Assembly (NCBI GenBank): GCA_027492205.1 | Contig: JAOZFN010000005.1 | Coordinates: 1 to 64,000 of the forward strand | Direction of reading: 5' to 3' | From: Thermoproteota archaeon | GTDB taxonomy: Archaea; Korarchaeota; Korarchaeia; Korarchaeales; Korarchaeaceae | Length of the DNA: 64,000 bases | Shown here: piece after piece, positions 10,682 to 60,418 of the stretch | Layout: every line of letters starts with the position of its first letter | Numbering within the stretch: the stretch's first letter is position 1 | The notes under the pieces: generated by a model | Told to the model about the DNA's origin: nothing | Database searches by the model: none | What the model saw: the letters and a program-made list of their open reading frames with translations, nothing else | Translations under genes and position numbers: made by a program

Positions 10682-10996
10682 CTAGGGCCCTCTAGACGCT
10701 CCCATCGTCGCCTCAACGGCTTCGTTCACCACCCTCGTTAGGGCCCTAGAGAGCCGGATGGCCTCATCCTCAACGTCATCTCCCGTAGAGTGCGCGAGTT
10801 CCTTCACCCTTCTCAGAATCTCCTGCACCCTTTCCCTGTTGGCAAGAACGTAGGACGCCGCCTCTGCTACGACCAATGCCATTTCAAGGAGAGATTGCAG
10901 GTCTAAGGAGCCGGCATTCCCCAGTAGCTCTGCTCGGAGCTTTCTCTTGAATGATAGGTGGGCCCAGAGCAGGTCATCTAGACGCTGATCCCGCAT
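10682..10996 (-). CDS. Small alpha-helical hypothetical protein
   Basis: 104-aa ORF in an otherwise empty gap; helical composition. Confidence 0.5.
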   Translation of the reverse strand: MRDQRLDDLLWAHLSFKRKLRAELLGNAGSLDLQSLLEMALVVAEAASYVLANRERVQEILRRVKELAHSTGDDVEDEAIRLSRALTRVVNEAVEATMGASRGP

Positions 10997-11075
10997 CTCA
11001 ATCTTCAGGCCCTGAACAGACTAACGGTTTCTTCCGGCGAATAACTTTTAGTCCAGGGGGAGAAGTGGGCTGACG

Positions 11076-11444
11076 ATGAAGCTCCACGTCAAGCTAGTTG
11101 AGAGGAAAGAAGATCCAGTCGGTGGAGTAGCTACTCTGAGGTTCTCGGTTGAGTCCCCCGTGAAGGGAGCCCTCTCGATCGAGGTTCCACTCGGTCTTGC
11201 CCGAAGACTCTCAGAGAGATATGAGGGAGAGGCCCTTTTGCTGGAGGAGAAGCCCCCTTCCAGTGAGGGGGATCTTCTAATGAATGCTGTGGTCTACCAG
11301 TCTGACGAGAACTCCCTTCGAGCGTCCGCATACGGCCTACTAGTGATCCTGGAGCTTAAGGGTCGGGTGGCGGATCTGGCCAATTTCTCTAGGGGGGCCG
11401 AGGTCCACTTTCTGCTGAGAGACATCGTCAGCGAGAGCCCCTGA
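11076..11444 (+). CDS. Probable RNA polymerase subunit Rpo8/RpoG (Rpb8-like)
   Basis: GDLLMNAVVYQSDENSLRASAYGLLVILELKG...EVHFLLRDI resembles the C-terminal pattern of archaeal Rpb8 as I recall it. Confidence 0.5.
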   Translation: MKLHVKLVERKEDPVGGVATLRFSVESPVKGALSIEVPLGLARRLSERYEGEALLLEEKPPSSEGDLLMNAVVYQSDENSLRASAYGLLVILELKGRVADLANFSRGAEVHFLLRDIVSESP

Positions 11445-11520
11445 CTCGCAGGAAACTTTTGAGAAATTTTCCTAAATTTTTCTCCATAATTCACAATAAT
11501 ATCCTCTCAGCTCCCTCAAC

Positions 11521-12279
11521 ATGGAGGGGGGCTTGCCTCCATCGTCCTGCGAGTGGCAGCTGTCGTCCTCCGTAGATCCCTACGGAAGTTACTCTGACCT
11601 AGCAAACCACTACCCGCTCGCTTGGAGGAGAAGAGAACACTTACCCCGGTGGCTCTCTGAGGTAGTAAGCGAGCTGGACGCACCTCCGCGACTTTTGGAC
11701 CTGGCTAAGGCGATTATCTCGGGCTTACCAAAAAGCCTCCACGGGAGAAGGAGGGGGTACCTCTACCTGGCGTCTTTGGTCGTGGCAAGCAGAATTCTCG
11801 GAACTCCGTTAACGCTGAAGACCGTTTCACAGGCTGCCGCCAGCGTGGGGCTCAGGGTAAGCCCCAAGAAACTTGCGATCATGGTGGGTGAGGTATCTTC
11901 GGCTTGCAGGTCACCTGTAATCGACAGCAGGTCGGTGAGGCAATACATATCCTCCATAGTATCCCACCTCAAGCGGGATCCCGCCCTTCAATCTATCCTG
12001 CATGACCTGTTCGGCGAACATTGGGGCGTCGCTCTTGACAGGCTCCACGTGAAGTCACTCGAGCTGCTTAAGGTGACGGGCAAGGTCACGAGGTTGGAAC
12101 TCGCCGGCAAGAGCCCGGCAGTCACGGCAGCGGCGACCGTGTGGCTCACGGCTAGGACTCTGGGATTGAGGTTCATAACACAGGAGAGGGTGGCACGCGC
12201 CGCAGGCGTGAGCTCCTCGGCGCTGAGAAAGCGGACTAAACTCCTCCTGCAGGGGTCGGAGGCGGCCAAATTTGCCTGA
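11521..12279 (+). CDS. TFIIB-like cyclin-fold protein lacking a zinc ribbon (divergent TFB paralog)
   Basis: ELAGKSPAVTAAATVWLTARTLGLRFITQERVARAAGVSSSALRKRTKLLL matches the TFB second cyclin repeat; no CX2C pairs at the N-terminus. Confidence 0.75.
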   Translation: MEGGLPPSSCEWQLSSSVDPYGSYSDLANHYPLAWRRREHLPRWLSEVVSELDAPPRLLDLAKAIISGLPKSLHGRRRGYLYLASLVVASRILGTPLTLKTVSQAAASVGLRVSPKKLAIMVGEVSSACRSPVIDSRSVRQYISSIVSHLKRDPALQSILHDLFGEHWGVALDRLHVKSLELLKVTGKVTRLELAGKSPAVTAAATVWLTARTLGLRFITQERVARAAGVSSSALRKRTKLLLQGSEAAKFA

Positions 12280-13948
12280 GAGAGGCAAAAATATTCCGTA
12301 CCTTCTCGTGGCCCTTGTGGTGGTCAACGAGCTGCGGAAAAAGCTGGCACGCGGTGTTCAACTCTCTTGGGACCTTTCTTCCGAGACGCTGCTGTCGGTC
12401 GTGCCCATATTGCTACCCACAGCTCTAATTACCGGACTCTTGGCACTACTCGCCAGGTCTAGACTCCGCGGTCAGGAGGCGGCCCTTCATGCATACGTCC
12501 TCACACCCAAGGACTTCCGAAGTAAGGCCGAAGTGGACGTTACACTCATTCACCAGGTTCTGGAGGCAACAGGGCTAGAAGGACACCTCCTCCAGCGCTT
12601 GGGTTCATCCGGCCCGTCGGCCCCTATTCTCGCCGTAGCTGAGCACGGGGAAAAGGGGGCCATCTCAGCCAAGGCGGCCCTGTCCGCCCTTCGAAGCGTA
12701 CTTGGACGCGACCTTGAAGTTGTTGACATGGGTAGGCGGACTTGGCCTGATCTTTTGACGTATAGACGCAAGCCCGGGACTCCTTCTACCCCAAGGCTCA
12801 GGCTGCCCAGTGTCGAGGTGGGCAAGCGCTCGCCGGCAGTGCTCCTTGGGTATGATGGAGGGAGAAGGCCCGTAAGGCTGCCGGTGAATCTGATCTCTAA
12901 ACACATCCTTCTAATGGGGAGGACTGGTTCTGGAAAGTCAACCACTGCGATGGCTATATGTGAGAGACTGTGGTCTGACTACGGCATCCCGTTTTTGGTA
13001 CTGGATCACCACAACGAATACACTGGTATTGTGACGAGGTTAGGAGGATCTGTCGTCGGCGCCTCCGGTGGCCCTTCCCTGAACGTCTTCAGGGGGATCG
13101 CATCCAATCCGCAGGGGGCCGACATGTACGTAGAGGTTCTACGAGATGCCCTTAGCCTCACCCCCTCCCAGACTTTCATAGTCCACAGGTGCCTCTCAAG
13201 CGCCCTGAGGGCGAGTCTAGGCGAAGACCCAACGTTGGCCGATTTGATGGACGAGGTATCCGAATATAGGGAGAGAAGTGGGCCAGAGATGGAGAGCAAG
13301 CTGGCGCTTCTCAGGAAGCTGGAGCCTCTCGTCGAAGGAGAGGGAAGAGCCCATCTTCTGGTTGAGAGATTTCCTAACGTCAGCCAGCTGGACAGGCCAA
13401 CCTCCATACTTCTAGGGGGCGTGGAGTCCGATACGGTAAGGGACCTCCTAGTTCACGTGATCCTGAAGAGGGTCTACGACAGCGCAAAGGCGTGGGGACT
13501 CGGATCTCCGCTCCGGCAGGTGGTGCTGGTTGAAGAGGGAGAGCGCGTCCTACCCACGATCTCAGATGAGAGGGGCGCCACAGTAACTGACAAGATGCTT
13601 GGGGAACTGAGGAAGTTTGGGGTGGGCATGATGATAGTGACTCAGGCCCCCCACGCCCTCTCGAGAAGCGCCATGAGGAACTCGGCCATCAAGGTGATCC
13701 ACGCACTTGGATCCCCCAGAGATTTTCAAATCCTGAAACCCCTCCTCTCCCCCCTGAAGGATGGTGAGAACGTTCCAGCAAGCGCTATCTTCACCCTCAG
13801 ACCAGGTGAAGCCGTCGTGATCATGGAGGGCAGACCCGCTCCAGTGAGGTGTACGGTGGCTCCGCCCTCGGTCGAGGCCACACCCATAACGGATAGAGAA
13901 CTCACCATTCTCGCTCAAATGGCCCCCTCGTTTCACACGCTGGAGTGA
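12272..13948 (+). CDS. Membrane-anchored HerA/VirB4-like (DUF87-type) ATPase
   Basis: N-terminal hydrophobic segment; HILLMGRTGSGKSTT Walker A; QVVLVEEGERVLP Walker B; GMMIVTQAPHALS. Confidence 0.8.
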   Translation: MPERGKNIPYLLVALVVVNELRKKLARGVQLSWDLSSETLLSVVPILLPTALITGLLALLARSRLRGQEAALHAYVLTPKDFRSKAEVDVTLIHQVLEATGLEGHLLQRLGSSGPSAPILAVAEHGEKGAISAKAALSALRSVLGRDLEVVDMGRRTWPDLLTYRRKPGTPSTPRLRLPSVEVGKRSPAVLLGYDGGRRPVRLPVNLISKHILLMGRTGSGKSTTAMAICERLWSDYGIPFLVLDHHNEYTGIVTRLGGSVVGASGGPSLNVFRGIASNPQGADMYVEVLRDALSLTPSQTFIVHRCLSSALRASLGEDPTLADLMDEVSEYRERSGPEMESKLALLRKLEPLVEGEGRAHLLVERFPNVSQLDRPTSILLGGVESDTVRDLLVHVILKRVYDSAKAWGLGSPLRQVVLVEEGERVLPTISDERGATVTDKMLGELRKFGVGMMIVTQAPHALSRSAMRNSAIKVIHALGSPRDFQILKPLLSPLKDGENVPASAIFTLRPGEAVVIMEGRPAPVRCTVAPPSVEATPITDRELTILAQMAPSFHTLE

Positions 13949-59425: not shown

Positions 59426-60418
59426 ATGGTGGGGGATCCCTTGGAGGGTGGCCGGAAGAGCGATAAGGAGAGCCTGTTTACTGAGGTAAAGTTTACCTGT
59501 CCCCGCTGCGGGAGCGATCAGATAATCAAGGACCCGAACACTGGGGAGCTGGTCTGCGCGAGCTGTGGGTTGATTCTAAGCACGGGTATGGTTGATACGG
59601 ATAAGGACTGGAGGGCCTTCGACGCCGATGAGTACATGGATAGGGCGCACACCGGGGCCCCAGTAACCCCAACCCGATCCGGATACGGCCTAGACTCCGA
59701 CATCGCCATGACCAGCGGATTGAGCAGGAAGTCCGTTCAGACCCTCAGGAGGACCCACAGGCACGTCAGCGATGCTAGGGAAAAGGCGGTGGAGCCAGCC
59801 CTCAGGAAGATAAGACTCGCGGCCGAGACCCTGAACCTGCCTCCTGAGACCGTGGAGGACGCCGCCATGCTCTATCGGAAGGCGGCCGGTGAGGGTCTGG
59901 TGAAGGGTAGGAGCATGGACGCCATGGTGGCCGCCGTGATCTATGCGGCGTGCAGGAGGACGGACGTGCCTCGGTCGCTGGAAGAGGTCGCCTCACTCTT
60001 CAACTTGAAGGAGAAGGAGGTGGGAAGGAGCTTTCGCTTCCTGTTCAGGAAGCTGGGCATAAGGATACCGCCTCCCAAGCCGGAGAACTTCGTCTACGCA
60101 ATATGCGCCAAGCTGGGGCTGCCCGAGAGGGTGGCTACCCAGGCCATCAGGATACTGAAGATAGCCCGTCAGCAGGGGGCGACTATGGGGAGGGAGCCCG
60201 TCGGCGTCGCGGCGGCTGCCATATACATGGCCAGCCAGGAGTTCGGTGAGCACAAGACTCAGAGGGAGCTTGCTCAGGCCGCGGGCGTCACCGAGGTCAC
60301 GGTCCGAAACAGGTACAAGGAACTCCTCGCCAAGGTCCACAAGCTCTGGCTGGAGCAGCTTCCGGAGGACCTGAAGAAGCAGATGGCCTCCTTCCGCGAG
60401 TCAGCCGAGGGTCAGTAG
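59426..60418 (+). CDS. tfb: Transcription initiation factor TFB
   Basis: CPRCGSDQIIKDPNTGELVCASCGLIL zinc ribbon; AAAAIYMASQEFGEHKTQRELAQAAGVTEVTVRNRYKEL. Confidence 0.97.
   Translation: MVGDPLEGGRKSDKESLFTEVKFTCPRCGSDQIIKDPNTGELVCASCGLILSTGMVDTDKDWRAFDADEYMDRAHTGAPVTPTRSGYGLDSDIAMTSGLSRKSVQTLRRTHRHVSDAREKAVEPALRKIRLAAETLNLPPETVEDAAMLYRKAAGEGLVKGRSMDAMVAAVIYAACRRTDVPRSLEEVASLFNLKEKEVGRSFRFLFRKLGIRIPPPKPENFVYAICAKLGLPERVATQAIRILKIARQQGATMGREPVGVAAAAIYMASQEFGEHKTQRELAQAAGVTEVTVRNRYKELLAKVHKLWLEQLPEDLKKQMASFRESAEGQ

Follow-up and report, generated by a model that had tools for sequence, protein, structure and literature searches.

A TFB paralogue encoded beside rpoG in Korarchaeia that keeps two predicted cyclin repeats and lacks the zinc ribbon and B-reader

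The zinc ribbon and the B-reader are the parts of TFB and TFIIB that recruit the polymerase and aid the start of transcription. In Sulfolobus, TFB3 acts as a co-activator; it is induced by damage and cannot substitute for TFB (PMC7289017). The TFB3 of T. tenax is without a cyclin fold, and the neighbouring locus tags TTX_1929 and TTX_1930 belong to tfb3 and rpoG, respectively (PMC3189178). In Sulfolobales, DNA damage induces the ced and ups genes (PMC11868833). In plants, the Arabidopsis protein AtBRF5 is a TFIIB-like protein without the N-terminal zinc domain (PMC7865254). In a korarchaeote, a gene named “TFIIIB” is co-directional with rpoG, and cooperation between RpoG and TFIIIB was suggested on this basis (Koonin, Makarova and Elkins 2007, PMC2234397).

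The gene described here (Table 1) lies in a window of 64,000 nucleotides, i.e., the whole stretch of DNA that was analysed, from contig JAOZFN010000005.1 of a Thermoproteota archaeon of the Korarchaeaceae, in the thermophilic class Korarchaeia. Its product matches the Pfam TFIIB repeat with an E-value of 7.6e-6, the strongest stretch being the second cyclin repeat, which the first-pass annotation had already recognised. The first cyclin repeat is weak by itself and becomes clear once relatives are added; both repeats align to canonical TFB in a profile-profile comparison (hhalign; E 6e-25, probability 99.6), and human TFIIB is found in the PDB with the family profile at an E-value of 1.1e-19. 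The AF2 model (mean pLDDT 77.5) comprises two cyclin folds and aligns with the TFIIB/TFB core over ~210 columns in a Foldseek search of the PDB (1d3u_B, TM 0.69 by target, E 8e-4); ranks 1–16 of that search are all TFIIB/TFB, whereas cyclins reach a TM of about 0.3. A non-TFB cyclin or a generic helix-turn-helix protein was considered as an identity and rejected: Cyclin_N scores 0.11 compared with 7.6e-6 for TFIIB, and the PDB profile and Foldseek matches favour TFIIB/TFB. Judged by sequence and predicted structure, the product is a TFB/TFIIB homologue, as had been proposed at first pass, and has two cyclin repeats. The canonical TFB of the same genome, which had been correctly located at 59426, has the complete set of modules: ribbon, linker and both repeats.

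Table 1. Coordinates of the TFB-like gene, the regions of its product, its neighbours and the canonical TFB in the window
Feature	Position	Strand	Basis and remarks
rpoG, RNA polymerase subunit 8 (Rpb8 homologue), 122 aa	11076..11444	+	Upstream neighbour; identified via orthologues
TFB-like gene, ribbon-less	11521..12279	+	ORF, ATG start, 252 aa, pI about 10.3
N-terminal tail, residues 1–37	11521..11631	+	Predicted disordered, pLDDT below 50; in place of zinc ribbon and B-reader
Cyclin repeat 1, helices at residues 43–128	11647..11904	+	AF2 secondary structure; hhalign to canonical repeat 1
Cyclin repeat 2, residues 136–251	11926..12273	+	AF2 model; Pfam TFIIB match at residues 194–242
Helix-turn-helix of repeat 2, residues 221–242	12181..12246	+	Basic recognition helix GVSSSALRKRTKLL; alignment with canonical GVTEVTVRNRYKEL
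CedD/HerA-type DNA-translocase ATPase	12272..13948	+	TTG start; 8 bp overlap with the end of the TFB-like ORF
Canonical TFB (comparison)	59426..60418	+	PF00382 5.5e-44; Zn_Ribbon_TF 3e-14

The zinc ribbon is absent from the TFB-like protein. There is one cysteine among the first 60 residues, in agreement with the earlier remark that the N-terminus has no CX2C pairs. A ribbon hidden by an upstream start, which had been named as one of the findings that would overturn this claim, or by a frameshift, was looked for and is ruled out: the reading frame is closed by a stop 7 codons before the ATG, and no frame of 10901–11760 contains a C-x(1–4)-C pair pattern. The gap between rpoG and the ATG is only 76 bp, and a 95% identical orthologue in another genome (G001) has the same N-terminus. 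The B-reader and linker are also missing, as the first-pass annotation said: 44 residues precede cyclin helix 1, compared with 121–169 in canonical TFBs, and the B-reader/B-linker of about 80–90 residues of canonical TFB is not found.

A search of the genome contigs with the single protein matched only the near-identical G001 orthologue. A family profile was built from 23 relatives and searched over 26 Korarchaeia genomes, in 25 of which a short TFB paralogue is present, usually as a single copy; the sole genome without one (G022) is 63% complete. A canonical TFB accompanies the paralogue in nearly all of these genomes. TFIIB repeats are scored by 22 of the 23 family members, and the TFIIB-type zinc ribbon (PF08271) by 13 of the 23 relatives; nine members are ribbon-less, i.e., that of the window and those of G001, G004, G017, G005, G007, G003, G009 and G011. 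From the ribbon to the first cyclin helix there are 81–92 residues in canonical TFBs and 25–48 in the ribbon-bearing korarchaeal paralogues; thus, all korarchaeal paralogues are without much of the B-reader/B-linker. G038 and G060 have rpoG-linked paralogues that are more distant, and in these the linker still has 89 residues. The paralogues are basic (pI 9.3–11), with a net charge of +10 to +29, compared with +4 to +8 in korarchaeal canonical TFBs; identity between genera is low (20–30%) and branches are long.

Some genomes have an extra TFB paralogue. That of the window genome (L062:4722-5633, G000:C9) and its counterpart (L090, G001:C51) have kept a ribbon in which the first pair is degenerate (C-P-I-D / C-P-V-D), and they lie near genes which, judged by eye, are type IV pilus assembly-like; the G001 copy has two in-frame stops near each other. 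In the extra paralogue of G002 (L054 / L091, G002:C79), the first knuckle is CxC instead of CxxC (MKCECGGEL).

In phylogenetic analysis, canonical TFBs form a clade apart from all paralogues (support 100/100), and the TFB-like protein of the window groups among the paralogues with those of G001 (100/99) and G004 (93/87). The placement of TFB3 had a support of 13 in the first tree, and TFB3 was omitted from the second. The tree implies four changes for the ribbon-less state. A one-time loss, i.e., a single ribbon-less clade, is rejected by the AU test (p = 0.0016); a topology with G017 placed in the G007 group is compatible with the data (p 0.17) and would reduce the losses to three. Thus, the tree indicates that the zinc ribbon was lost independently three to four times, the exact count being limited by long branches. 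Since a single loss is rejected and the relatives are mostly ribbon-bearing, the ribbon-less state is, on this phylogeny, derived and recurrent. Much of the B-reader/B-linker has been lost in all Korarchaeia members, with the ribbon losses coming afterwards. The earlier account, a paralogue without ribbon or linker, stands in these respects; it missed the derived and recurrent nature of the loss, and the setting beside rpoG and a CedD-like ATPase.

The ratio dN/dS between the window and G001 is 0.31 in the core and 0.73 in the N-terminal tail (few sites); for the ribbon-less orthologue pair G007/G003 the value is 0.20. In the genomes examined, the rpoG-linked copy has an uninterrupted reading frame. 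As judged from substitution patterns, the TFB-like gene is under purifying selection and is not a pseudogene. Canonical-invariant positions of the fold have been kept by the paralogues (Arg177, Gly255, Pro258 and several Ala). At the canonical-invariant positions of repeat 1, Arg183, Gly200 and Arg204 are found in none of 29 paralogues and Lys197 in 4 of 29; in the recognition helix, Val291 is found in none and Arg294 in 9 of 29. In the alignment, the protein of the window has retained Arg294, and Val291 is replaced by Ser. The lost positions presumably include contacts to TBP and DNA, Val291 and Arg294 being taken to correspond to human Val283 and Arg286. The residues of the recognition helix differ across the paralogue family, and thus no shared DNA target is implied.

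The rpoG of the window is highly divergent and has no Pfam match when searched alone; of its orthologues, 18 of 20 match PF16992, and a search of the PDB with the family profile gives S. pombe Rpb8 (3e-15) and archaeal RpoG/Rpo8 chains (7e-11 to 9e-11). The ATPase has CedD as its top NCBIfam match (111 bits, E 6e-32, below the cut-off of 600) and is the best CedD match of the genome, as is the same ATPase in nearly all genomes of the class; matches to the CedB model are weak and nearly all fall on this same CedD-like ATPase. The co-directional cassette rpoG–TFB-like gene–ATPase is present in most Korarchaeia genomes, including those with ribbon-less paralogues such as G007 (L051); the TFB-like gene either overlaps the gene for the ATPase or adjoins it, and lies next to rpoG on the same strand in nearly all Korarchaeia loci with a readable upstream side. 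G038 and G060 (L056, L055) belong to another archaeal class, in which rpoG lies beside a ribbon-bearing, long-linker TFB paralogue, with no CedD-like ATPase adjoining; Lsm and TGT genes are nearby, and a canonical TFB is present besides. In other Thermoproteota, a CedD-like ATPase often follows directly after rpoG, without a TFB (L143, L144, L145, L147, L151, L153, L158). This suggests an old linkage between an RNA polymerase subunit and a DNA-import-type ATPase; because the pairing occurs elsewhere in Thermoproteota without a TFB, the TFB gene was apparently inserted into an rpoG–ATPase pair that already existed. The rpoG loci of Thermoproteota were also checked for inserted TFB genes: one Sulfolobales genome (G163) has a TFB3-like gene in the vicinity of rpoG, and none was found in the other members of its class examined. 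On the opposite strand (10682–10996), divergent to rpoG, there is a gene for a small predicted helical protein; other Korarchaeia have small divergent ORFs in this position (clusters c15, c41, c43), which are possibly its fast-evolving orthologues.

Of the roles offered at first pass, that of a “specialised factor” is favoured. There is about an even chance that the TFB-like protein, a derived rpoG-linked paralogue, acts through its core alone as a DNA-binding accessory factor to the transcription machinery. The sequences show that, in this ancient family of rpoG-linked TFB paralogues, the B-reader/linker was shortened across all korarchaeal members, and that the zinc ribbon was then lost in the branch of the window and independently elsewhere. 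Both polymerase-facing modules of TFB are gone, and a basic two-cyclin core with its helix-turn-helix is retained under purifying selection, in linkage with rpoG and the CedD-like ATPase gene. Because ribbon and reader are absent, such a protein would not be expected to bring in RNA polymerase by way of the dock, nor to help in starting transcription as TFB does. The core may bind DNA with a specificity unlike that of the canonical BRE/TATA complex, or may dock on the transcription machinery, and so serve as an accessory regulator, possible targets of which include the rpoG–ATPase operon itself. However, the low conservation and long branches also fit drift under weak constraint, and operon linkage by itself does not define function.

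The first-pass annotation had also proposed an antagonist, the core of which would occupy the TBP–promoter complex instead of canonical TFB and block recruitment of the polymerase. A ribbon-less TFB that retains the cyclin core and helix-turn-helix should indeed be recruitment-dead, but if it competed for that site, it should also keep the repeat 1 and recognition-helix positions which have been wholly or mostly lost (Arg183, Lys197, Gly200, Arg204, Val291, Arg294), and most members of the paralogue family still carry a ribbon. Since these canonical-invariant positions are lost, it is less likely that the protein simply competes with TFB for its promoters; the proposal is weakened, and some form of competition, although conceivable, is unlikely. 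It is equally unlikely that the TFB-like protein is a polymerase-associated partner of RpoG, its cyclin core binding RNA polymerase near subunit 8 or elsewhere as a lineage-specific co-factor of initiation or elongation. The same-strand adjacency to rpoG in Korarchaeia and in the class of G038 and G060 is as such a partnership would predict, and cooperation of RpoG with “TFIIIB” was proposed from neighbourhoods (PMC2234397); yet rpoG has a like ATPase neighbour elsewhere without a TFB, so that adjacency may mean co-expression only, and the paralogues have no conserved extra domain for contact with RNA polymerase.

By analogy with Sulfolobus TFB3, the TFB-like protein might instead regulate DNA uptake or exchange by controlling the CedD-like translocase of its own operon. 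The intimate arrangement of the two genes and the standing of this ATPase as best CedD match in nearly all genomes of the class are in keeping with this, as are the damage induction of ced and ups in Sulfolobales (PMC11868833) and the reported role of TFB3 as an activator there (PMC7289017). However, the ATPase is remote from CedD (111 bits compared with 600), CedB matches are weak and nearly all the same ATPase, a Sulfolobales TFB3-like protein is closer to the canonical profile (4e-9) than to the TFB-like family (0.004), and the module pattern of TFB3 is the opposite one; such control is quite improbable, although gene position suggests that the TFB-like protein may be tied to DNA translocation through its CedD-like partner. 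A decaying paralogue with little function left would account for the long branches, the repeated module loss and the stops in the C9-type second paralogue of G001, but this is very improbable, being largely refuted by the purifying selection (core dN/dS 0.2–0.3) and by the retention of the rpoG-linked copy as an open frame in its cassette position.

The favoured reading of an accessory factor can be extended, with a slim chance of being right: Korarchaeia would have turned a duplicated general factor into a DNA-binding regulator consisting of the cyclin core only, co-expressed with RNA polymerase subunit 8 and a translocase ATPase, and would have discarded the ribbon at least three times. If true, a general initiation factor would have become a regulator dedicated to linking transcription with DNA exchange. 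The stepwise, repeated shedding of modules under selection, beside a gene for an RNA polymerase subunit, can be seen as a natural experiment on the lone TFB core, and the 2007 suggestion of cooperation between RpoG and TFB becomes testable.

The rpoG–“TFIIIB” neighbourhood has been known since 2007, and the K. cryptofilum “TFIIIB” gene beside rpoG is very probably an orthologue of the TFB-like gene. The text of that paper (PMC2234397) gives the neighbourhood only, and does not describe the loss of ribbon or linker or the CedD-like partner; a search of open-licence papers found neither a ribbon-less archaeal TFB nor an earlier description of the ribbon loss or of the linkage to CedD. AtBRF5, which is from a plant, has a linker and a single cyclin fold, and has no rpoG linkage. 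Canonical TFB/TFIIB, the closest fold in the PDB, shares with the TFB-like protein the two cyclin repeats and the helix-turn-helix, and differs in having the ribbon, the B-reader/B-linker and the invariant positions of repeat 1 and the recognition helix. Identity with Sulfolobales TFB3 is not supported by the profile scores. The TFB3 of Sulfolobus and Thermoproteus is likewise a degenerate paralogue of TFB, and its linker is short, at 20 residues in the TFB3-like protein of G163; however, TFB3 has kept the ribbon and is missing one cyclin fold, whereas the TFB-like protein has lost the ribbon and kept both folds.
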